Of a stretch of DNA of 64,000 bases, positions 39,042 to 56,536 are shown piece by piece. The stretch spans positions 248,001 through 312,000 of the forward strand of contig NZ_CP096020.1 in the NCBI RefSeq assembly GCF_023115355.1, in the 5' to 3' direction. The stretch is from Halocatena salina (GTDB lineage Archaea > Halobacteriota > Halobacteria > Halobacteriales > Haloarculaceae). Both the position numbers and the translations under genes were made by a program. Under the pieces are notes generated by a model. The model saw only the letters and a program-made list of their open reading frames with translations, did not search any database and was not told where the DNA came from. Each line of letters opens with the position of its first letter. Positions within the stretch are counted from its first letter, which is position 1.

Positions 39042-42000
39042 TCAGTCTTCGAGCAGTACGATACTGTTATCATCGAGAGCGTCAAGCCGCTCTTTCACCC
39101 CCCTGATTCGATCCAGGACCGCTTTCGACTCCGAGAGAAGCTCGGCCACCCGCTCTTCGCTCGGCCTGTCACCAGCGTCGACGACTGCGGTGACGTCGTC
39201 GGTGACGGCAGCGTTCGGAAGTTCCTGACGTAATTCTTCAGCAACAGCCTGTAGTCTGCGCCACGTCTCGTCGTCGGCGTCTGCTGGCTTCGGCGCTTTG
39301 GCCTCCTGAATGAGCTGACGCACTCGCCGTTCCGTCGGCGGACGTGAGGCGGAAACTGCTGTCATGACAGCCTCCGTCGTCGGCGACTCAGGGTGTTCCG
39401 CCCGGAGTCGCTGGTCTGCCTCCTGTAGCTTCGACCAGAGACTCACATCACCGTCGAGCAGCGCACGAACGTGGTCATACATCTTGGCCTGCTGAACGAT
39501 GAGGGTATTGACGATGTCACTTTCCGCCAGATGTTCACCGTTCCAAACCGTCTCGAACAGCCTTTCGAGATCGTCAAGGGCGATATCATCGAACTTGACC
39601 GTGGCCGAATCGAGAATGCCTCGGACGACGTTTTCGTTCGACTGCACCCACGCCGTAAGCTCTTCACAGACACTAACAGGATCAGACGCGGTGATGGTGT
39701 CTCCCGTGACACGTCGGTACTGTGTTGAGACTACGTCGACGCGATGGCTCTCGGCATCTTGAATCCGAGCTTCGACGGTTGCAACGGTAGGTACGGTGTT
39801 ACTATCCGCTGTCGCTCGCATACTGGCAGTAATCGACGCGTTCGGATAGCACGCCGTCATCGTGTCCAGCTTGTCGGTGAAGCGCCCCCAAAGTGACATC
39901 CCAGAGTCATCTACCCCGAAGAGTTCGCGGGCATCAGCGAACGTTTCGGCCGCTTCGAGCACCGCTTGGAGGTCGTTTTCGCCTCCCAAGTCGGACGTCG
40001 ATAGCTCCTCGCCACTGAGCGCTGGCTCGATCGTGGTTTCGAACGCGTCGAGAGATACGTCGAACTCCCTAGTAGCTGCCTTCAACGTCCGTTTGACGGT
40101 TACGCTGTTCTCATCGATCCACTGTCCGAGTTCCGCCAGCCACTCGTCCGGTCCCTCTCCTGCCGGTTCGTCACCGAGCACCGCCGTGACGAGTGCAGTT
40201 ACCGTCTTCGGGTCGATTATTTCGACGCCGAACCGAACTTGAAGCGACGTCAACCCGCCTTTGGTCCGCACCTGGCGGCCGATTGCAGCAGGGTCGGTTA
40301 CGTACTCCGTATCCTGTTTGAGCGCAACCGGTTTATTGGACGTCGCAAGCGTGATAAGGAGAGCGGCGATCGATTCTTGGGGCGTGCCGCGATAGTCACC
40401 GCTCGCAGTCCGGGCTTGTCGGAGCAGCGTCTCGACGTCCACCGACAGCTGTGACTCGTACACCTCGATGAACTCGCGACACCAGCCGGTATCAGTGAGC
40501 TCTGCACTGGTGACGTCGATACCGAGCATGGCGGCGTCTGCATCCGACAGCGGCCACTCACCACTCCCCCGGAAGAATTTCGCTATCGCCTTCGCGTCGT
40601 CAACTTCGCGGAGAGAGCGCGAAAGCGTCCTCCGAGTTGCGCCGAACACCGCGTCGATTTGGTCCGTAACGACGTCGTCAAGCACGCTGGAGCGCACTCC
40701 CCGATGTTCGTGAACCGTATACACGGATGCATCTTCGAGGACCTCAGTCACCGACGATTCGAGACGGCGTTTGTCGGTTCGGTGCTCACGTTCGAGTTCC
40801 TTGTGGGACTCCGTCTCTTCCTCTAGAACCTGACCCATCCCGATGACGTTCTGAATCCGCTCAAGCATCGTCTCGGGCACGTCGATCGTGATGAGGATGT
40901 GTTCGCCACCATCACGGCCGTCGTTCACTTCCTGCCACGTCTGGATCTGCTCGGAGACGGTGGCGGAATCGTTGGCGAGGATTCGAACTCGAAGTGCGTC
41001 GTACTCCGGTGACGGCGCTCGGTCGACCGGCTCAAGGATCGAGTAGTCGTATCGGAGTGGAACGTGTCGTTCGTTGCCGACGTCGACCTCGTGACGGCTG
41101 CCGTCGCTCCGGAGGAACTCGTCGTTCTCGCGCACCCGTGTCTCTATCCATGCCGACAGTTGGTGTGGAGAGATCTTCGCCGCCTCATCCTGTGCCCGAC
41201 TGAGAATGCTCTCTTGCTCTTCAGAGACGAGCGTGTACACCTCATCATCCTTATCGTTCGTCTCAGTGAGTACCTTCTGCTTTTTGACGAGGGTGTCCAG
41301 ACCCGACTCGGTTCGCTCGACGACCTCCTCGACCGACGCAGCGACATCGTCGACCATCAGACGGCCGAGGTTCTCCGGAGTCGAGGGGACAGCAGGCGTC
41401 TGATTCAGTAGATACAGCGCTTTCGAGAGGCGTACCTCCCAAGCGTCTTCATCGTCGAAGGTCGGGATCAACGTGTTGTCGATCATCTCCTGTACCCATA
41501 GCGGCAGATACGTCGTCTCCTCGACCAGCAGATCGAATAGGACGTCCCACGTGACGAGTGATCCCTCGTCTTTCGAAGCCCACCCAAACGTGGTAAACAG
41601 CGACCGAACCAGAACAAGCAATGCTCGGCCCTGAATGTAGTCTCGGTCGGTCGTGCGCCCCTGCGTGATGAGTTCCTGCATCACTGCACGCAGTAGCGAG
41701 AGATCGTACTCACGGAACGGATAGGCCTCGACCGGATCGGGAGCCGCACTCATCACCGGTGCGTACGTATCGAGCGAGAGATCCGGCATCGATACCACCA
41801 GCGACTCGACGCGGTCTTGGCCTGCCGATGGCGACTTATGGAGCCATCGCTTCCGGACGATGATCTCGGTGTCAGCACCCTCGAGCAGAACTTGCTGTTC
41901 AGTCCAATGATCTTTCGGCGGCTCGCCGATGAGATTCTCTCGGGTGTCCGGGAGCGAGTACTGTCCGGTGGTAACGACGACGGGGTTGGGGCCGCGCTGA

Positions 42001-42866
42001 AGCGCCTCCATCGTCTCCTCGAACTCTCTGTATCGATACCGGCTATCACCGACGAACAGCGCAACCTCATCGAGACCCAGGAGTAACTCGGTTCGTTTGC
42101 TTCCACCGTTCAGGGCTCTGGTCGCTGTCTCAACGCGAGCGACTAGTTCGTCGGTAGAGAACGCCTTCGGCTTGACTTCGCTTTCTGCTGCCTCGATCGA
42201 CGCTTTCACGCCCGAGCGGGTGTCGAGGTCCGTTCCCGACGTCTCTGCCATTGCTGGCAGTGCGTCGTAGAGCCAACTACGAAGCGGGGCACGTTCGTCA
42301 AGCACTTCATCGAACGTCTTCCCGTCGTGTTCGATCTTCTGGAGTGCATCCCAGACGCTGTCATACGCCATGTCGAGCGTCCAGGCCCATTCGAGCAGCC
42401 AGTTCGGATCTGTCGGGTATCCGAATTCACGACCGATCGCCTCATAGATCAGAAACGGCAACGGTGGTTCTTTCGATGCGTCTCGGTCGAGCAAGTTGAG
42501 GAAGACTGGTTTGAGGCGATCGACGTGAGAATCAGTGATACAACGTTGGAGCTCGTCGAACCCGGACCATTGCTCGGCGAGCCGATCACCGAGAAAGGCA
42601 ACGTCAGATTCGTCGTCAGTGACGAGCCCGACCAGTTTCAGGAGGTGGGTCTTCCCCGAACCGAACGTCGCGTGGATGTAGAGAAACCGGACACCCTCAG
42701 TTGGATGGGTTTGAATGACGTCACCGAGTTTTTCGAGTATTTGCTTGGCGCTGTCCGTCTCATAGAACTCCCTGACGTCGGTCTCGGCACGCTCACGCGC
42801 ATTGACCTTCTGTACTTCTTCGAGTTGCCGCGTGGGATCGCTGTGAAAGAGATTCCCGATAGTCAT
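39042..42866 (-). CDS. brxC: BREX P-loop ATPase BrxC/PglY (second copy)
   Basis: A 1274-residue ATPase with Walker A ATFGSGKT at residues 66-73 in the context YIHATFGSGKTHLL, which is typical of BrxC/PglY. A long helical body with several coiled-coil stretches extends to the C-terminus, including repeated blocks reading SRPPTERRVRQLIQEAK and DRPSEERVAELLSESK. BrxC is a large AAA+-like BREX component of unresolved mechanism. Its start overlaps the brxB stop (ATGA). BREX type 5 is characterised by having two brxC genes; this one and the copy at 43483-47226 differ strongly, so they are ancient paralogues. Confidence 0.88.
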   Translation of the reverse strand: MTIGNLFHSDPTRQLEEVQKVNARERAETDVREFYETDSAKQILEKLGDVIQTHPTEGVRFLYIHATFGSGKTHLLKLVGLVTDDESDVAFLGDRLAEQWSGFDELQRCITDSHVDRLKPVFLNLLDRDASKEPPLPFLIYEAIGREFGYPTDPNWLLEWAWTLDMAYDSVWDALQKIEHDGKTFDEVLDERAPLRSWLYDALPAMAETSGTDLDTRSGVKASIEAAESEVKPKAFSTDELVARVETATRALNGGSKRTELLLGLDEVALFVGDSRYRYREFEETMEALQRGPNPVVVTTGQYSLPDTRENLIGEPPKDHWTEQQVLLEGADTEIIVRKRWLHKSPSAGQDRVESLVVSMPDLSLDTYAPVMSAAPDPVEAYPFREYDLSLLRAVMQELITQGRTTDRDYIQGRALLVLVRSLFTTFGWASKDEGSLVTWDVLFDLLVEETTYLPLWVQEMIDNTLIPTFDDEDAWEVRLSKALYLLNQTPAVPSTPENLGRLMVDDVAASVEEVVERTESGLDTLVKKQKVLTETNDKDDEVYTLVSEEQESILSRAQDEAAKISPHQLSAWIETRVRENDEFLRSDGSRHEVDVGNERHVPLRYDYSILEPVDRAPSPEYDALRVRILANDSATVSEQIQTWQEVNDGRDGGEHILITIDVPETMLERIQNVIGMGQVLEEETESHKELEREHRTDKRRLESSVTEVLEDASVYTVHEHRGVRSSVLDDVVTDQIDAVFGATRRTLSRSLREVDDAKAIAKFFRGSGEWPLSDADAAMLGIDVTSAELTDTGWCREFIEVYESQLSVDVETLLRQARTASGDYRGTPQESIAALLITLATSNKPVALKQDTEYVTDPAAIGRQVRTKGGLTSLQVRFGVEIIDPKTVTALVTAVLGDEPAGEGPDEWLAELGQWIDENSVTVKRTLKAATREFDVSLDAFETTIEPALSGEELSTSDLGGENDLQAVLEAAETFADARELFGVDDSGMSLWGRFTDKLDTMTACYPNASITASMRATADSNTVPTVATVEARIQDAESHRVDVVSTQYRRVTGDTITASDPVSVCEELTAWVQSNENVVRGILDSATVKFDDIALDDLERLFETVWNGEHLAESDIVNTLIVQQAKMYDHVRALLDGDVSLWSKLQEADQRLRAEHPESPTTEAVMTAVSASRPPTERRVRQLIQEAKAPKPADADDETWRRLQAVAEELRQELPNAAVTDDVTAVVDAGDRPSEERVAELLSESKAVLDRIRGVKERLDALDDNSIVLLED

Positions 42867-43486
42867 CGTTGGAGATGCACCTCCCGGATCTGGCCGTCAA
42901 TCTGATGCGCTGGATAGTAGTGTCGCGATTTGCCACCGAAGAAGCTCAATTTCCCACCGACGACGTCACCGGGAAACGGAATACCGATGGTTGATTTGAC
43001 GTTCCGTCGATCGAGTTCGTCGAGGAGCTCTGATGCGCGCGTGAACGGATAAAGACTGCCGAGATTGAGCAGTAACACGACGTGGCTCTGCGTTTCTAAA
43101 CGTTTCTTACAGACCTCGTCTTCGATTAGCAACTGAACGAGTTCTTCTGCTAGTTGGTCCTGCATCGTTTCCTCGATCCGCTCACCAGCGGATACATCGT
43201 CATCGAGACCAGTCAACGGTGTTCCTAGATCGACGAGGAGTTTGTACACGTCGGTCATGGGAAGTAACTCGTCGAGCCAGATCGGTTGAACGGTCATATC
43301 ATCTGGTGTTTCCGGTGACTCGATGAGACCATCAGCCCATGTTTCGAGCCGATCAGCGGTTTGGTGTTCGACCGTCGGATCGACAGCAGCGATGACGAAC
43401 GGGTTGCGAATCCCGTGTTGTCCGTTAGCGAACGTACGGAGCTTCTCTTTGAATTCACGATACGGCGACGAACTCCCTTGACTCAT
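42863..43486 (-). CDS. brxB: BREX protein BrxB (DUF1788)
   Basis: A 207-residue DUF1788 protein. The middle carries the family's LLNLGSLYPFTRASELLDEL block (about residues 140-160), and the end GIPFPGDVVGGKLSFFGGKSRHYYPAHQI (about 168-196) is the usual C-terminal signature. No catalytic activity is known. The gene is fused by 4-base overlaps to brxC genes on both sides, so all three are translationally coupled. Confidence 0.88.
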   Translation of the reverse strand: MSQGSSSPYREFKEKLRTFANGQHGIRNPFVIAAVDPTVEHQTADRLETWADGLIESPETPDDMTVQPIWLDELLPMTDVYKLLVDLGTPLTGLDDDVSAGERIEETMQDQLAEELVQLLIEDEVCKKRLETQSHVVLLLNLGSLYPFTRASELLDELDRRNVKSTIGIPFPGDVVGGKLSFFGGKSRHYYPAHQIDGQIREVHLQR

Positions 43487-46400
43487 CGAATAACCACCCC
43501 CTGATCAGCTTCTTTTATTTCGAGCTCTTTTTGCTCCACGAGGCGCTCCAAACGACGGTTCAGATTCTGACGATCCGCAGGGACAGCACCGATTTGATCG
43601 ACATCGTCGGGCGTTCGATCGCCAACGATCGACGACAGTCGATCGAACCGAGATCTCAGCTCGTCTAGCTCATCGACAGCGTCGGATAGTGGTCTCCGCT
43701 GTGCCACGGCGTCTGTAATCTTGATAAGTTCCTCTGTATCTGCATCAGTGGCGAACATCACGACTGCGTCTTCGATCGTTTGGAACCATTGCTGAAGGCG
43801 GCGCAGCGGCGTGATATACTCACTTTCAAACGTACTGTGGACACCGGCCGGGAGCTCCGTTGCCGGAACGATCCATGGGTGTCGCTCGATTCGATCGATC
43901 AGAGTTCGCAGGTCCCGTTCGTTGACGAACGTCTCCCAGCACCGTTCGAGTTCGGAAGCCAGATCAGGGACGAGCTTTCCAGAAAACGTGTGCCACCCGT
44001 CGGTCGTCCACCATCTGCCGTCAAAGGACGAAACGTCGGTTGAGCGCGAACCGATCGCTTTCCGGGCTTTCTCGTCGATCCAGTCGAACTGGCTGTCTCC
44101 GAACGTCAGTAGTGCATCGAGGCGATAGAGCGTCGATATCCGCCGATTCCAGACGTCAGTGACGTCCTCGATCCATTCTTGGATCTCGTTCGTTTGGTCG
44201 ATGACGTCTTCGATACCATCCCCTTGTGATTTCACGATGGCGAGTCGTTCGTCAGTGGCTTCGATCCGTTCGACGAGAGTATCGACGAACGCCTCAAGCA
44301 AGTCCGTGACCTCGCCCGTTCGAACGTCGGTATCCATGACTAACGTTACGTCTTCGTACAGTCCGGTTAGCTTCGAGTCGATACGCTGATTGGTCTCTTG
44401 GAGATTGATGAGTCCATCTGTGATCGTTTCGGTCGTCTCTTTGAATCCGCCCTCTTCCAGAAGCTTTCCCAGCGGTTTTCGCGGGAGCAGTTTCAACCGC
44501 GTCGTCGACAGGTCGTCGAGATCGAGCACGGCGTCGTCTTCCAGCGTGTTTCCCCCTTCGTCGATGGGTAGCAGCCGACCCGTTCGACAGAATCCCCAAA
44601 GTAGCGCGCACAGGGCGGGTCGTGTCTCCGCGTAGAACGGCTTTCGTTCAGTGATGCAGTCAAGGATGGTGTTCATGTTGAGCCCTTCGTCCTGATCTTT
44701 CAGCTGTCGACCGGTGAGCGACAGCACGTTTCGTTGGATCGTTTGTTGCCCCTGATTCGCGTCTTGGTTCGAGGAGGGGACCTGGATGGTCCGAGCCCAT
44801 CCAGGTAGGGGCTGATCACTGTCGAGTTCACGTAGCTCTTGCAGTCGACTCTCATTGACTTGGAGCATCATCGGATGGAAGTCGTCGGGGTATGCGACTG
44901 CGACTGCGACTGCGACTGCTTTGGAAAGCCCACCGATCTCCGTGCGGTCTTTCACGGAGTGTGAACCACTCATCATCGCACTCGTCAGCTTACTACGAAC
45001 GGCGTTCGCGCGCTGTTGGAGATCTCGTTCGACGGCTGGTGGCGTATCGTGTATCGCGATCGCGTCGCGTAGCGCCCACCATTCGATCAGGCGCGTGCGT
45101 AGATCCTGTAACCCCTCCGTATCGATCTCCCAATAGAGGGTGTTTTCATCAGTCTGGTCCGGGGATGCATCCGGGCGAACACCGTGTATGACGACATCGA
45201 TGTCTAAACCGCCCTCAGTTTCGACAGTGCTCGCAAAGTCAGTTCCATCGAGTCCAAAGTGATATGTGATGGGGTACTCGTCGCCGTAGTCACCGTAGGG
45301 AACGGACTTTGGAAGCGACAAATCTTGAGTGATCCGGTCCCAGAGATGTTCATCTAATGTTTCGATGATGTCGTCCCAGTCTGGATTAGTTTCGTTCTTT
45401 TCGGTGTCATCGTAGATGAGGCGCTCTTCTTGTGTCGCAAACCGATAACGAGGGCCGCTCTCATCCCGTGTCGGACGGATGAACTTCTGAAGGCGATCTA
45501 ACGATTCCTCGACGCGATTGGTCGTGCTGATCCACGACTGGCCGTTGAGGTCGGACATTACTGCGACCGCGATGTTACCTTCGTTCAGAGGGACGATCTC
45601 GTGGACGTGCTGGAGCAGTAGCACTGCCTTTGCAACATCGAGATCGAACGCCTGGATATCGCTCTCTGCAGCATCTACTTCGTCTGCGATGTCCGTCGTC
45701 TCGTCGTCTCCATCGACGACACGCACATCTTGGGGAAGAACCTCACGAAGCTCAGGCTCGATCAGTTCGTAGAAATCGACCAGTGAAATGATCTGGTCTT
45801 CCTTACCCTCATCGACCCAATCGTCGAGCAATCCATGCATGAGTGCGAGGATTGCTCGGGCCGTTCCGGAGAAGATGGATTTCGCTGGGTCACTTGCCTC
45901 CCGACGGAGGTTAAATAGGATTTCGAGGAACAGTGGGGCGTGATACGGAAGGAATGGGTAGAACGCCACGAGTTTCTTGTCGTCGATAACGTCGAGTCGT
46001 GGCTTCGTGTTCTGCTTGATCTCGTTGTAGACGAGCGATTCGGGCGGTTTTACGGCAGCGCCATCGAGAATCTGCCGGACCGCACGTTCACCAGAATCTG
46101 ATTTCTGGAAGAGCCGTCGTTTGGCGATGTCACCGACGTGCTTGCTCGGGAGCGGATACCGGTGAGGGAACCGGTCTTTGACGATACTGAAGTCAGCGCC
46201 ATGCGCTGCGAATTTCGGTTGTACGTCCTCGATTTTCGCCTGTGCAGTTGCGATCAGCTGAATGGCACCCCCTCCGATATCGTCGACGTTCTCTGCGAGG
46301 GTCTGGAGTTCGGTGAGCCGCTCGAAGTTAGTTCCGATGAAGAGACTCACTTCGTCAAGCAAGAGTACAAGTTTAACTGGCTGGTCCAGAGCCTCTTCAC

Positions 46401-47226
46401 GGGCTTGCCGGAGTGATTCGAGTCTACTGATGACTGCCTCAGGATCGATGTCCGATGGCTTGAGATCCGTATATCCGTCCCGTGTCCCCGTCACTTCTTC
46501 GAACAACTCTGGAAGCACGACATCTGACAAAGCGCCGTACTGCTGGATATCGGTCCACAAGCTGTTTGTCTCCCAGTCATGTTTCGGTGCATTCGGTGTC
46601 ACTTCTTCGACCACTGATGCAGCTCGTCGTTGTCGTTCGGACCATGCCTCGGTCGTTCGGTACCAATCTTCGAAGTACGCGACGTCAAGCTGGGAGGACA
46701 ATCCGGTGGCGATGTCGTCGTCTACCCCCGTCAGAACCGGGTTCCCATGGGCGTGTCGGAGAACGATTTCACTAAAGCTACGTTGTTTCTGTCCCTGATA
46801 TTTCAGGAGGTTCACCGAGACGGGAATGACGTGGTAGGCAGCATGCACTCGTTCCCATCGTTCATGGAGATCGCCAAGCTCGCTGTCCACCGACTCATCG
46901 GAGACGAGATCGTTCCAAACCTCAGGGTGCCGAGACTGGAGCCACGCCGAATCCATCAATCCGTCGAGAACGGTCAGTAAGTGGCTTTTTCCACTTCCGT
47001 AGTATCCGTAGAGCCAGTAGTTGGATCCCGTCCGCATATCCTCCGCTTCGTCAAGTAATCGATCAACGAAGTCATCGAGGAAACGCTGAGAATCAGCCGT
47101 CACGTGGTATGACTCGATTGCTTCCTTTCGGTGTTGGTTTCCGCCTTGTGAGCGTCGCTCCCGGTCGATACGCACGGACTCCTCGAAATCTTCTGGTAAG
47201 TCATCAAACCAGTTCGTATCGATCAC
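43483..47226 (-). CDS. brxC: BREX P-loop ATPase BrxC/PglY (first copy)
   Basis: A 1247-residue ATPase. Walker A GYYGSGKS is at residues 74-81 in WLYGYYGSGKSHLL, and VLLLDEVSLFIG near residue 295 is the Walker B region. A long alpha-helical C-terminal half follows. It overlaps brxA upstream and brxB downstream by 4 bases each. A short run of six-base units (44894-44919) encodes a Val-Ala repeat inside it. Together with the second copy it gives the duplicated brxC expected of the haloarchaeal BREX type 5. Confidence 0.88.
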   Translation of the reverse strand: MIDTNWFDDLPEDFEESVRIDRERRSQGGNQHRKEAIESYHVTADSQRFLDDFVDRLLDEAEDMRTGSNYWLYGYYGSGKSHLLTVLDGLMDSAWLQSRHPEVWNDLVSDESVDSELGDLHERWERVHAAYHVIPVSVNLLKYQGQKQRSFSEIVLRHAHGNPVLTGVDDDIATGLSSQLDVAYFEDWYRTTEAWSERQRRAASVVEEVTPNAPKHDWETNSLWTDIQQYGALSDVVLPELFEEVTGTRDGYTDLKPSDIDPEAVISRLESLRQAREEALDQPVKLVLLLDEVSLFIGTNFERLTELQTLAENVDDIGGGAIQLIATAQAKIEDVQPKFAAHGADFSIVKDRFPHRYPLPSKHVGDIAKRRLFQKSDSGERAVRQILDGAAVKPPESLVYNEIKQNTKPRLDVIDDKKLVAFYPFLPYHAPLFLEILFNLRREASDPAKSIFSGTARAILALMHGLLDDWVDEGKEDQIISLVDFYELIEPELREVLPQDVRVVDGDDETTDIADEVDAAESDIQAFDLDVAKAVLLLQHVHEIVPLNEGNIAVAVMSDLNGQSWISTTNRVEESLDRLQKFIRPTRDESGPRYRFATQEERLIYDDTEKNETNPDWDDIIETLDEHLWDRITQDLSLPKSVPYGDYGDEYPITYHFGLDGTDFASTVETEGGLDIDVVIHGVRPDASPDQTDENTLYWEIDTEGLQDLRTRLIEWWALRDAIAIHDTPPAVERDLQQRANAVRSKLTSAMMSGSHSVKDRTEIGGLSKAVAVAVAVAYPDDFHPMMLQVNESRLQELRELDSDQPLPGWARTIQVPSSNQDANQGQQTIQRNVLSLTGRQLKDQDEGLNMNTILDCITERKPFYAETRPALCALLWGFCRTGRLLPIDEGGNTLEDDAVLDLDDLSTTRLKLLPRKPLGKLLEEGGFKETTETITDGLINLQETNQRIDSKLTGLYEDVTLVMDTDVRTGEVTDLLEAFVDTLVERIEATDERLAIVKSQGDGIEDVIDQTNEIQEWIEDVTDVWNRRISTLYRLDALLTFGDSQFDWIDEKARKAIGSRSTDVSSFDGRWWTTDGWHTFSGKLVPDLASELERCWETFVNERDLRTLIDRIERHPWIVPATELPAGVHSTFESEYITPLRRLQQWFQTIEDAVVMFATDADTEELIKITDAVAQRRPLSDAVDELDELRSRFDRLSSIVGDRTPDDVDQIGAVPADRQNLNRRLERLVEQKELEIKEADQGVVIR
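44894..44919 (-). repeat. Hexanucleotide run inside brxC
   Basis: GCGACT occurs four times in tandem, plus a partial copy. In frame it encodes alternating Ala and Val. Copy-number change by one unit would add or remove two residues without a frameshift. Confidence 0.9.
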
Positions 47227-48062
47227 GACTTAGCACCCCCAATGATCCACGAATACGTCCTCTCACACGGCCGCAGTTGATGACGTGCGTGTAGTTCGAC
47301 CCATTCCCACGCGTTCGTGTCGGCTGCTCTATCGTACAGCTCCGCCCAGCGCTCGTTCGGTTGGAACAAGTAGAGCAGGCCGTTGGGAGAAGTGAACCAG
47401 TGTTCGCCGCCTTCTTCGTAGGAGTATCCCATCGCGACGAGAAGCGGACTATCTCCCACTGACGGTACTTCTCCAACGATGGCCTGCTGGTCTTCGAGAA
47501 CCCCGATTTCACGCATAACCGATCTGAATCCCTCACACCAGCGTTCGATCGTCGAATCAGCGTAATCGAACGAGGTACCGTCAGCATACTCTAACTGATC
47601 GAGAATCGATGTGAGGGCTTCGTTCGAGAAATCGAGCGCGTTCGGTTTGCTCGCTGAAAATCGAGAGACGTATTCGTGGATGACATAACGAACGAGCGCA
47701 TCATCGGCAGCCAAATACAGATAGAGTATCTGTGCCTTGTCACGCGCAGTCGTACAGGAATCAAACACTGTCGGGAGCGACCCGGGATTAGGAAGACTCG
47801 GTGGAGCGTTCTTGAGTCGCGACGTCAGAATTCGGTATATCTTCTGCGCACTCCCTCGTGTGCTACGGTTTGAAAGACGATTTTCGAACCAAACCTGCTT
47901 GACATCGTTCCAGTTCCCATACGTATCGTAGAGGCGAACGAGCTCTTCGGCTCGGGTAACGTGGAGTCCACACATGGTCAAATCCATATTCACGTCCTCC
48001 GATGAGAGCTGAGGAGCGAAAGTGGGACCGGGTGTTTTCCCACCATCGAATGCGATGTCCAT
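47223..48062 (-). CDS. brxA: BREX protein BrxA (DUF1819)
   Basis: A 279-residue BrxA/DUF1819 protein, the first gene of the BREX cluster. The family pattern includes DLTMCGLHVTRAEELVRLY, a central ARDKAQILYLYLAADDALVRYVIHEYV stretch and C-terminal WCEGFRSVMREIGVL. In other BREX types BrxA is a small DNA-binding protein with winged-helix features; here the role is inferred from context. In-frame ATG codons at residues 26 and 30 are alternative starts. The promoter must lie in the 111 bases that separate it from the exporter gene. Confidence 0.85.
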   Translation of the reverse strand: MDIAFDGGKTPGPTFAPQLSSEDVNMDLTMCGLHVTRAEELVRLYDTYGNWNDVKQVWFENRLSNRSTRGSAQKIYRILTSRLKNAPPSLPNPGSLPTVFDSCTTARDKAQILYLYLAADDALVRYVIHEYVSRFSASKPNALDFSNEALTSILDQLEYADGTSFDYADSTIERWCEGFRSVMREIGVLEDQQAIVGEVPSVGDSPLLVAMGYSYEEGGEHWFTSPNGLLYLFQPNERWAELYDRAADTNAWEWVELHARHQLRPCERTYSWIIGGAKS

Positions 48063-53887: not shown

Positions 53888-56536
53888 TTAGAGAAAACCG
53901 ATGCCCGTTTCAAGATCAGTTGTCAGAGGGAGGTGGCCCTTCGCTGCTGCTGTCGCCGCTTGATCTGCATACGCTGTTGTAATCGGAAGGCGAGTTGTCG
54001 TATTTGCGACGCCTATGTGGCATTGGGTGAGAAGATAGATTTGCCGAACTAGCGTCTCGATATTTGTGGTACCGTGCTTACGTGCTACAGTAATCGGTCG
54101 AGGCGTCCCTGTCGTTCCTTTAGCAAGCGGTTCTGGATAGCCATAGGTCGCTACATACGCGAGATTTTGTTCATCGTTGATACAGGCAATTCCCTTGTCG
54201 GGATTTGCGAACCCCTCTTGATTCACGATTCGAGCAGGCGCTTGCTTACGGATTTCGACGACATCGTACGAGATTCCATCTCTCTCAAGGAGTTCAAGGG
54301 CTGGTTCGATTGGATCATTCATGAAGCCATCTCGGTGGATAATAATATGGTCTGGCGTGCCACGACAGTGCTCTTCGTACCCCAATAAGGATTGACGGGT
54401 GATTCGCCGAAGCGCCGATGCAGGGATACGTTCACCCGTTTGGGGACCAGTGTGTGCATATCCGAGCACAGCACCTTCGTTCGTAATCGCCGTTACAGAA
54501 GCCCCAACCCTGATGCCATCTTGTAGACCGTCGTCATCGTCGTCGAAATACTGGCCAACATCGAATGCAAGATAGAGATCGGCATCACCTGGAAGCGAGT
54601 CCTCTACAGTGAACGGGATACCACCAGCAGCGCTAACCAGCCCTAACGCGATGTTCTTGTGATATCCTGTTTCTTTCATCGACTTTCTGTCGATCATCTG
54701 CGAGTGTAGCCCTTTCTCAGCAAATACCTCTTTCAGTTCGTCGTAGGGCTGGTAGAATTTGGTGATCGCACTTTTCTCGGGAGGCAGAACCACGAGAGCA
54801 GCGTCGAAACCGTGATCGGTCGGAAGCTGACGTCCAACTTGAATATCAACGTCACCAGGGGCCTCGCTTTTGGGGGTCGGACTAAACGTAATAGCCTCTA
54901 TAGAGTCTGGCTCGGCACCCATTGATCGGAGTTTTCGTGAGAACACGTTCCAAAACGAGTCGGCACGTTCACCTTCTAGCTGCTGGGGGTACACGTAGAG
55001 GACATTGAACGACGCGGGGGGTTCGTAGACGCCTTTACTCTCGACTTCCTTTGGATGCGAACCGGTACGTCCGTCCTCGAATGTGAGAACATCGTTCATC
55101 TCGTACAGCTGCTCAACACGGAGATGATCATCACCAGTAAACAACGGAGCATCAACAGAGAATGAGATCTCTGTTTTATCAAATGCGATGTCGCCGATCT
55201 GTTGGGCAAATTCAACAGCATTTTCGACGCGGGCAGATGCTGCGCGCCGCATACGTGGCTGGGCTTCAGACCAGAACTCCTCATCGAACTGCGAGAGATT
55301 CTCGGTATGACCCTGAAGAGCGAGTAGTTCCTGCGGAAATATCTGCTGATTCCCCGATCCCATCGGATAGGCGGAAATGACACGCCGGTTCATACGCTCG
55401 ATCATCGCAACGGTATCGTCGTCAACTAACGGGTTCTTGTTACGATGGTAATCGACCACGCTTGTTTCAGCATCGATCACGGGATCAGTCGCATGTTCGG
55501 CCTGCACGCAGCCGAGTCTATACCCCCGACCGTTGTAGGTCGTAACGAGTCGAAGCCCTGGATAGAGACGCTGGTTATCGATCTTGTCAAGGGTATATTT
55601 CGTCTCAACCCGCGTTTTTGGATTGACGTGGAGATAAACTTGGCCAGATGCCATAACTGTAATCGCGCAGTCAAACCGCTCGTATAGATGAAAATTTCCT
55701 GTACCAGCCTGGATTGGTATCGGCTCACTCTTGAGAATCTTATTCATTGAATGAACAATGAACCCTTGTTCCACCACTTGCTGTTTAAACGCCTCCTCTA
55801 CGAGACGACGGATTTGCTCTCGTTCGGCGCGATCCAAGAGATTCAGTGTTCGTTCTCCAGCTGATTTCAGCTCTCGAACGCCATCACTCTCAAGAGTTCC
55901 GTCGCCAGGAATCGGCTGAAGAGCTACGATTTCGAGATCTCCAGCATATGCCATCGGCGGTGCATGGTCGTCATACTTTTCGCGAATCTCACGCATCGCA
56001 GTGTATGCTCGCTGCCGCCGATCATCTTCTGACTGCGCTTGTTCGTCCATAGTGATGAGGACGTCATACACATACGTCGGAACGTCGTCAATCCGCTGGT
56101 TTGAAGGATAGACTGTTAATCCGTGGCCACTGGTCGATAGGTTACACGTGTCAGTGAGTGCATCCTCGATTGCTTCCTCATCGTACTTTGCTGAGGAATG
56201 ACTGCTAGTATTGGTAGATTCCGCTTGCTCGGCTGCCGTCTGGCTCTCGGACGAATTCTCGTCCGTTCTCGTCGACGGATCCTGTTTTCCATCGTCGTTG
56301 TTTCCTGGTGGTTTGTACTCGACTGGAACACTGACATCGAACTCGGACTCGAACGCCTCGATACTTGCTGGAGTCAGTTCAATCGTCCATGCACTTATTT
56401 CGGGATTCCATCGACGGTGGGTCGTGTCCCACGGGAGACTCTTGATCCGGTTTTTGGTGTCCTCATCGTAGTCAAACTTGATCGTCAATTTTTCACCATA
56501 TTCATCTGTGGTTTGATCATATTCGAACTTTGTCAT
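53888..56536 (-). CDS. Long prokaryotic Argonaute, NgAgo-like, with HARP-like N-terminus
   Basis: An 882-residue Argonaute, a nucleic-acid-guided nuclease. The PIWI domain is intact with catalytic residues D659 (LYLAFDVGQY), E702 (TGERIP), D736 (IIIHRDGFMN) and D858 (TTAYADQA). These correspond in order and spacing to the DEDD tetrad reported for Natronobacterium gregoryi NgAgo, and the C-terminus, ending in GIGFL, matches that protein's VGFL end closely. The MID region is near 580-640. Unlike NgAgo, which opens with an OB/repA-type domain, this protein has residues 17-70 resembling the small HARP-like module of some SNF2 helicases (IKFDYDEDTKNRIKSLPW, RRWNPEISAWTI). A Ser/Asp/Glu-rich linker (about 78-118) then leads into the N domain. 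It overlaps a DUF2797 gene by 4 bases. DNA-guided DNA cleavage is likely. Confidence 0.93.
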   Translation of the reverse strand: MTKFEYDQTTDEYGEKLTIKFDYDEDTKNRIKSLPWDTTHRRWNPEISAWTIELTPASIEAFESEFDVSVPVEYKPPGNNDDGKQDPSTRTDENSSESQTAAEQAESTNTSSHSSAKYDEEAIEDALTDTCNLSTSGHGLTVYPSNQRIDDVPTYVYDVLITMDEQAQSEDDRRQRAYTAMREIREKYDDHAPPMAYAGDLEIVALQPIPGDGTLESDGVRELKSAGERTLNLLDRAEREQIRRLVEEAFKQQVVEQGFIVHSMNKILKSEPIPIQAGTGNFHLYERFDCAITVMASGQVYLHVNPKTRVETKYTLDKIDNQRLYPGLRLVTTYNGRGYRLGCVQAEHATDPVIDAETSVVDYHRNKNPLVDDDTVAMIERMNRRVISAYPMGSGNQQIFPQELLALQGHTENLSQFDEEFWSEAQPRMRRAASARVENAVEFAQQIGDIAFDKTEISFSVDAPLFTGDDHLRVEQLYEMNDVLTFEDGRTGSHPKEVESKGVYEPPASFNVLYVYPQQLEGERADSFWNVFSRKLRSMGAEPDSIEAITFSPTPKSEAPGDVDIQVGRQLPTDHGFDAALVVLPPEKSAITKFYQPYDELKEVFAEKGLHSQMIDRKSMKETGYHKNIALGLVSAAGGIPFTVEDSLPGDADLYLAFDVGQYFDDDDDGLQDGIRVGASVTAITNEGAVLGYAHTGPQTGERIPASALRRITRQSLLGYEEHCRGTPDHIIIHRDGFMNDPIEPALELLERDGISYDVVEIRKQAPARIVNQEGFANPDKGIACINDEQNLAYVATYGYPEPLAKGTTGTPRPITVARKHGTTNIETLVRQIYLLTQCHIGVANTTTRLPITTAYADQAATAAAKGHLPLTTDLETGIGFL

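Follow-up and report, generated by a model that had tools for sequence, protein, structure and literature searches.

The stretch of Halocatena salina DNA analysed here (64,000 nucleotides, hereafter the window) carries at positions 53888–56536 of the (-) strand an ORF that starts with ATG, has no internal stop codon, and encodes an NgAgo-type long Argonaute of 882 amino acids. Four parts can be distinguished along it, all on the (-) strand: a HARP-like module standing where the OB/repA domain would be (residues 1–76; 56309–56536), an acidic, low-complexity, and fast-evolving linker (residues 77–117; 56186–56308), the N/PAZ/linker part of the core (residues 118–500; 55037–56185), placed by alignment with NgAgo and by the PADLOC pAgo model, and the MID and PIWI domains (residues 501–882; 53891–55036), placed by Pfam Piwi at residues 596–866 (E 6.7e-15) and by matches to the CpAgo and TtAgo structures. 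The PADLOC pAgo model PDLC02391 spans residues 120–882 over its full length (1051 bits), and residues 1–119 alone lie outside a known family model. The nearest solved structures by sequence are CpAgo from Clostridium perfringens and chain 6qzk, followed by TtAgo, and the protein is the sole Piwi match across the 4.0-Mb genome. The identity with NgAgo is 37%–39% and begins at residue 88, which, together with Pfam Piwi and a core tree that places the two in one clade, bears out the preliminary description in matching the PIWI, MID, and C-terminal parts to NgAgo. The four catalytic acids said there to be kept, D659, E702, D736, and D858, fall on the NgAgo tetrad in the alignment (NgAgo is the locus L011/L036) and form an intact DEDX tetrad; judged from its sequence, the Argonaute is catalytically complete in core and active-site residues.

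Directly upstream of the Argonaute gene lies a partner gene (56533–57528, (-) strand), whose product of 331 amino acids is assigned by Pfam to DUF2797 with an E-value of 1e-30. The two genes overlap by 4 bp in an ATGA stop/start junction (56533–56536, (-) strand), and the same overlap with the upstream gene is found in the other three genomes that encode a module-fronted Argonaute (L033, L034, and L035). The start codon of the Argonaute is supported since all four genomes share this overlap, and translational coupling of partner and Argonaute is likely. The DUF2797 gene overlapping the Argonaute start is the most consistent feature of these loci and was absent from the preliminary description.

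The AF2 model of the partner (mean pLDDT 76) contains a split OB-like barrel formed by residues 20–73 and 259–293, which matches OB folds in structure comparison, together with conserved Cys/His sites, a predicted zinc part, and a beta-beta-alpha-beta-alpha core at residues 125–176 (strands 125–131 and 135–141, helix 142–151, strand 156–163, and helix 166–176). The top VIA row for this core is the GIY-YIG nuclease Slx1 (6sei), with Z 5.3 and an rmsd of 4.3 over 96 residues, a Z below the level that the tool calls safe (Z under 8), the next row being 3.5. Residues Y128, G138, R144, R148, and E173 are invariant in 13 sequences, while the YIG is replaced by K-V/A-G. In view of the pLDDT of 76, the Z under 8, and the replaced YIG, calling the modelled core GIY-YIG-like is a reasoned guess, not proof.

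The comparison covered a sample of 391 genomes of the class, among which 56 have a match to the window Argonaute. Other archaeal Argonautes with the same N-terminus, which the preliminary description had left as a matter for searching, do exist: full-length relatives (residues 1–882) at 73%–76% identity were found in three other genomes, namely, Halorhabdus amylolytica, a Natrialbaceae MAG, and a genome of another family (G179), and module-fronted Argonautes are thereby present in 4 of the 391 genomes, window included. No further carrier was added by searching 146 genomes of the window's own family, and plasmid records gave distant Argonautes only. The next group is 35%–41% identical, mostly starting at approximately residues 88–119, and includes NgAgo; a group at 25%–31% identity constitutes a sister clade, in which the PLD-associated (APAP) type is found. 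Maximum-likelihood analysis of the core unites the four module-fronted Argonautes in one group (100/100) inside the NgAgo-type clade (100/100), and the OB-type remainder of that clade groups at 81/91; the exact placement within the clade is not firm because the tree program flagged a meeting of long branches.

Among the 391 genomes, partner-type DUF2797 (E<=1e-15) is confined to the 15 that have an NgAgo-type Argonaute and is present in every one of them, and the gene adjoins the Argonaute in all 15 loci, that of NgAgo included; gene picking gave it in 13 of them, and those in L082 and L083 were recovered by tblastn (as L008 and L009). It was found in none of the 10 APAP-type loci examined with several kilobases of flank. 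A separate, housekeeping-like DUF2797 is also present in the genomes, from which the partner DUF2797 stands apart as its own clade (100/100), with subgroups that match the Argonaute tree. By these comparisons, the DUF2797 gene is always adjacent to the NgAgo-type Argonaute and co-diverges with it. In the literature on pAgo neighborhoods that was searched, partly at the level of titles and abstracts, DUF2797 is not linked to Argonautes, and no earlier description of this partner was found as far as the search extended. The conserved DUF2797 partner is a more consequential result than the module-fronted architecture.

Where their relatives carry an OB-type N-terminus, the window Argonaute and its three homologues have FEYDQTTDEYGEKLTIKFDYDEDTKNRIKSLPWDTTHRRWNPEISAWTIELTPASIEAFESEFDVSV. 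The AF2 model of the module, built from 12 module sequences, reaches a mean pLDDT of 92.5. Its elements between residues 5 and 66 succeed one another as strand-strand-helix-(short helix)-strand-strand-helix (strands 5–11 and 14–20, helices 25–32 and 36–39, strands 42–44 and 49–53, and helix 56–66). The identity of the window protein with its homologues amounts to 61%–72% in the module, 22%–24% in the linker (residues approximately 76/77–117), 71%–73% in the N/PAZ part, and 83%–85% in MID-PIWI. Synonymous sites are near saturation, and nonsynonymous substitutions in the Argonaute core are much rarer than synonymous ones. The similarity of the module is not due to chance, given the contrast with the linker and the near-saturated synonymous sites, and the module is confidently predicted to be folded and under purifying selection. 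The acidic linker noted earlier behind the module was found again at residues 77–117, where the sequence is acidic, of low complexity, and fast-evolving. The module is itself acidic in composition (17 D/E and 9 K/R), acidic proteins being usual in halophiles, and Trp50 (W50) is invariant in all of its members.

The preliminary description had likened residues 17–70 to the HARP module of SNF2-type translocases, and this likeness stands in the motif and the predicted secondary-structure order and falls short in the profile statistics (p about 0.02) and in Pfam HARP, which is unmatched. The comparison was made with chain 4o66, a solved structure of HARP2 from mouse SMARCAL1. The module and 4o66 share the motif order KSLP...W, with the invariant W50 aligned with the Trp of 4o66, and their predicted secondary-structure order agrees. 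The hhalign score of the module against 4o66 was 14.1, as compared with 9.0+-1.9 for shuffles, of which 3 of 200 scored as high, while a profile of 13 module sequences scored 13.5, a value reached by 6 of 350 natural fragments; the likeness to the HARP2 profile is statistically weak at a p of about 0.02. Six module-carrying genomes were searched with Pfam HARP (PF07443) at E<=10, and none of them contained a match; Pfam-A placed Argonaute residues 1–100 and a homologue in no family, with chance matches only, and phmmer and profile searches of the PDB with the module likewise returned chance matches, 4o66 being absent at E<=10. Foldseek of the module model against the PDB gave nothing at E<=0.001; the RadD and ZorD helicases appeared with E-values of about 1.6 and were given no evidential weight. 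In VIA-align, the best Z of the module model was 4.7, with gyrase/topoisomerase, eIF1, and other common folds, and 4o66 lay outside the best 50 rows, an absence that says nothing either way. On these comparisons, the module is better termed HARP-like than HARP.

Outside the Argonautes, the nearest copy of the module, at 46%–55% identity, forms the N-terminus of a haloarchaeal SF2 helicase (L032:1786-3579), in which it is followed by Pfam UvsW_N at residues 105–178 and then by the motor. HARP, UvsW_N, the XPB DRD, and MutS domain I have been described as structurally related, and this kinship would fit the tandem of UvsW_N with the module. The module may, with a somewhat less than even prospect, belong in the strict sense to the HARP/UvsW_N/XPB-DRD/MutS-I superfamily and provide the DNA-junction recognition of SMARCAL1, as the element order and KSLP...W motif common with 4o66 and the tandem in the helicase would suggest; this would be a stronger version of the main reading given below. 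The lack of a Pfam HARP match and of 4o66 in the PDB profile search at E<=10 speaks against such membership, as does the carrier itself, since an Argonaute has no ATPase and annealing-helicase action as such is impossible for it.

With a cutoff of E<=0.01, single-sequence and then profile searches found the module in 18 of the 391 genomes, although the weakest matches are open to doubt. In addition to the Argonautes and the helicase, it occurs in an HTH-like protein (L046 and L049, the HTH called by eye), as small proteins (L043–L045 and L050), and at the C-termini of proteins of unknown function (L042 and L047). It also constitutes gp159 of Halogranum tailed virus 1 (HGTV-1), a protein of 107 amino acids that was the only viral carrier in the single-sequence scans. 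Foldseek against viral models returned the 107-amino-acid HGTV-1 protein (presumably gp159) and several phage proteins, a DUF3560 protein, and a phage helicase, all with a probability near 1 and with E-values of 0.01–0.05. Phage records searched with the module by tblastn yielded nothing beyond chance matches. Its presence in the Argonaute, the helicase, small and HTH proteins, and HGTV-1 argues for a module that is mobile among haloarchaea and at least one halovirus: a small domain, as yet without a name, that helicase, Argonaute, and virus have in common. It need not be fork-specific, because several of its carriers are not helicases.

The same distribution can be read in another way, with the module as a protein–protein or regulatory domain that docks on host proteins or acts as a sensor or decoy for viral proteins and does not bind DNA. 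Such a role would suit the small stand-alone proteins, the halovirus copy, the C-terminal copies in proteins whose function is not known, and the acidity of the module; it is nevertheless considered rather unlikely, for copies of the module adjoin DNA-acting domains (the SF2 helicase with UvsW_N and the HTH), and OB-type Argonautes have the DUF2797 partner just as regularly, so that the module is not needed for pairing with it.

The comparison with relatives shows that the front domain has been exchanged. An OB-type N-terminus is present in the NgAgo-type and APAP-type Argonautes with readable N-termini; L014/L016 and L015 were counted as OB-type by the N-terminus present before their frameshift, and L019 was left unjudged, the frame upstream of its match being uninformative. 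Since the outgroup clade has the OB N-terminus, as do the relatives of NgAgo type, the module is derived, and with the four module Argonautes monophyletic and the sister clade OB-type, a single OB-to-module replacement is the simplest history. By sequence comparison, the OB-type N-terminal domain of the relatives has thus been replaced by the mobile HARP-like module. That the gene is a decaying remnant with no function is very improbable: related genomes do contain frameshifted or interrupted Argonaute copies (L014, L015, and L016) and short high-identity Argonaute fragments (G121, G255, and G321), but the window copy is intact with its tetrad kept, its core shows the low nonsynonymous change given above, and the DUF2797 partner gene is intact too. 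OB domain and module do occupy the same place ahead of an acidic linker, but the reading of residues 1–76 as a diverged NgAgo OB fold or as disordered can practically be set aside: the AF2 model (pLDDT 92.5) is of mixed alpha/beta order with a pair of long helices and no OB barrel, profile comparison of the module with 16 OB-type N-termini gave a probability of 0.1% over 7 columns, and the alignment with NgAgo has no real similarity in residues 1–76.

Within the NgAgo architecture of OB/repA-N-PAZ-MID-PIWI, it is the N-terminal OB fold that the window protein does not have, by AF2 topology and profile comparison. The earlier claim of an N-terminus unlike OB/repA is sustained by the three homologues that share it, and residues 1–75, for which an OB fold or disorder had been named as the contrary outcomes, are predicted to be mixed alpha/beta. 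An assembly or gene-calling artefact was also considered and rejected, because four genomes share both the fusion and the ATGA overlap. The repA description of NgAgo reportedly originates from a 2021 paper on NgAgo nicking. A repA domain of NgAgo is mentioned in PMC10908814. In a pAgo survey, the N-terminal additions given are Schlafen/AlbA_2, lambda-repressor-like, and OB only, which are likewise nucleic-acid-binding fronts on long pAgos, but none of them is HARP-like (PMC6299218). A term search of PMC2743648 (Makarova 2009) and PMC6299218 revealed neither the module nor the DUF2797 partner. The module-fronted architecture is real and, within the literature that could be searched, undescribed, as the preliminary description had supposed.

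The surroundings of the locus fit defence. A BREX operon lies at 39042–48062 of the same 64-kb window, and the loci of relatives are near OLD-like nucleases, HerA-NurA (6 of 15 loci), and BrxC/D-like ATPases. The window Argonaute itself is flanked by DUF2797 and an amidohydrolase-like ORF, with no member of the PLD-type family and no Rfam match at the locus.

As compared with known systems, NgAgo has the same clade, core (37%–39% identical), catalytic tetrad, and upstream DUF2797 gene as the window Argonaute, while its front is OB/repA and not the HARP-like module. The HARP of SMARCAL1 (PF07443; 4o66) has a similar predicted strand/helix order, the KSLP...W motif, and the aligned Trp, but it is carried by an SNF2 ATPase, whereas the window module is carried by a nuclease and leaves the Pfam model unmatched. 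In the UvsW-type SF2 helicase, the module is joined to a motor, and in the window Argonaute to what is, from its sequence, a guide-directed nuclease.

Taken together, the NgAgo-type guide-directed Argonaute and its DUF2797 partner may act jointly to interfere with invading DNA, the front that engages DNA being exchangeable, a reading for and against which the balance is about even. The sequences establish the anatomy, its conservation, the exchange of fronts, and the joint inheritance of the two genes; from these we infer a DNA preference of the front, a loading step, nuclease action of the partner, and a role in defence. For mesophilic pAgos, the melting of the duplex is what limits cleavage of double-stranded targets (PMC11442185). 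The module would perform the job of the OB domain by guide-independent docking on partly open DNA, such as forks and unwound or branched plasmid or viral DNA, and the flexible acidic tether with its front domain would help PIWI to reach single strands that PIWI cannot unwind. An OB front would hold ssDNA and a HARP-like front opened or branched DNA, in both cases making it likelier that the guide finds a single-stranded target, for instance where a plasmid or virus is replicating. The partner would bind DNA as a GIY-YIG-like protein and process targets that are nicked or branched, in a role comparable to that of the APAP partner of the PLD family.

A more specific form of this proposal is doubtful and is offered tentatively: NgAgo-type Argonautes would each depend on a GIY-YIG-like DUF2797 nuclease as the second component of the system and would have a swappable front cartridge, here a HARP-like junction reader that loads the nuclease on replicating or unwound invader DNA. 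Few genome-editing claims have been disputed as much as that for NgAgo. Should NgAgo require its partner, one would expect weak or inconsistent results from assays of the Argonaute by itself, and the dispute over its activity would in part reflect the testing of one half of a system. The natural exchange of front domains and the co-inherited DUF2797 make NgAgo function testable and provide a new handle on its mechanism.

The APAP system combines a haloarchaeal long-A pAgo with the PLD protein AgaP (PMC11442185). It resembles the window system in being a haloarchaeal long Argonaute with a full tetrad and a co-encoded partner, and differs in belonging to the sister clade, in its OB front, and in its PLD-type partner in place of DUF2797. 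A PLD-type gene with the HxK and GSxNLS motifs was found in 8 of the 10 APAP-type loci examined, and one NgAgo-type locus, L083, contains both DUF2797 and a PLD-type partner.

The DUF2797 gene is a constant companion of NgAgo-type Argonautes, as it occurs in all 15 genomes that encode such an Argonaute, always upstream of it, and nowhere else among the 391 genomes sampled. It is located at 56533-57528 of the window and was also found at loci L003-L016 and L036, of which L011 and L036 belong to NgAgo. Its product is predicted to be a GIY-YIG-like/split-OB/zinc protein. HerA helicase and NurA nuclease genes lie close to six of the 15 NgAgo-type Argonautes, including L033 (13779-16945) of a close relative carrying the HARP-like module, and might supply guides or process targets. 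In all three close relatives, the DUF2797-Argonaute pair is adjoined by a divergent HFX_2341/DUF6293 regulator made up of a Csa3-like Rossmann fold and a winged helix (L033:6378-7205, L034:5795-6622, and L035:5340-6185), unlike the window locus, which has none. The window has, approximately 6 kb from the Argonaute, part of a BREX operon (39042-48062) with BrxA, BrxB, and two differing BrxC/PglY ATPases, both BrxC having PADLOC matches at 1924-1958 bits; large ORFs also lie at 21-39 kb.

DUF2797 and PLD-type partners are not strictly mutually exclusive because at one NgAgo-type locus (L083, G083:C8) a PLD-type AgaP-like gene accompanies the DUF2797 partner. Beside the Argonautes of APAP, the sister-clade system with the PLD-type AgaP, a second conserved neighbor besides the PLD-type gene is an ATPase-like protein roughly 560-600 aa long, present at nine of the 10 loci examined (L090-L096, L098, and L099; e.g., a 571-aa ORF in L092).

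Frameshifts disrupt the NgAgo-type Argonautes of L014, L015, and L016. Over the compared stretch, L014 and L016 are identical, yet they come from different families, and a transposase-like frame appears to interrupt the L016 copy near its 3' end, pointing to recent transfer and decay. Three further genomes contain short fragments with 65-86% identity to the window Argonaute (G121:C35:19993-20277, G255:C1:2535204-2535461, and G321:C5:3397-3525), which are probably what remains there of the module-bearing lineage.

Outside Argonautes, the module stands in tandem with a UvsW_N domain in an SF2 helicase (L032:1786-3579), an arrangement that recalls the doubled HARP domain in vertebrate SMARCAL1. 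Halogranum tailed virus 1 (HGTV-1), a halovirus, encodes it as a stand-alone protein, gp159 (L073:3989-4312), with a possible role as a replication factor or anti-defense decoy.
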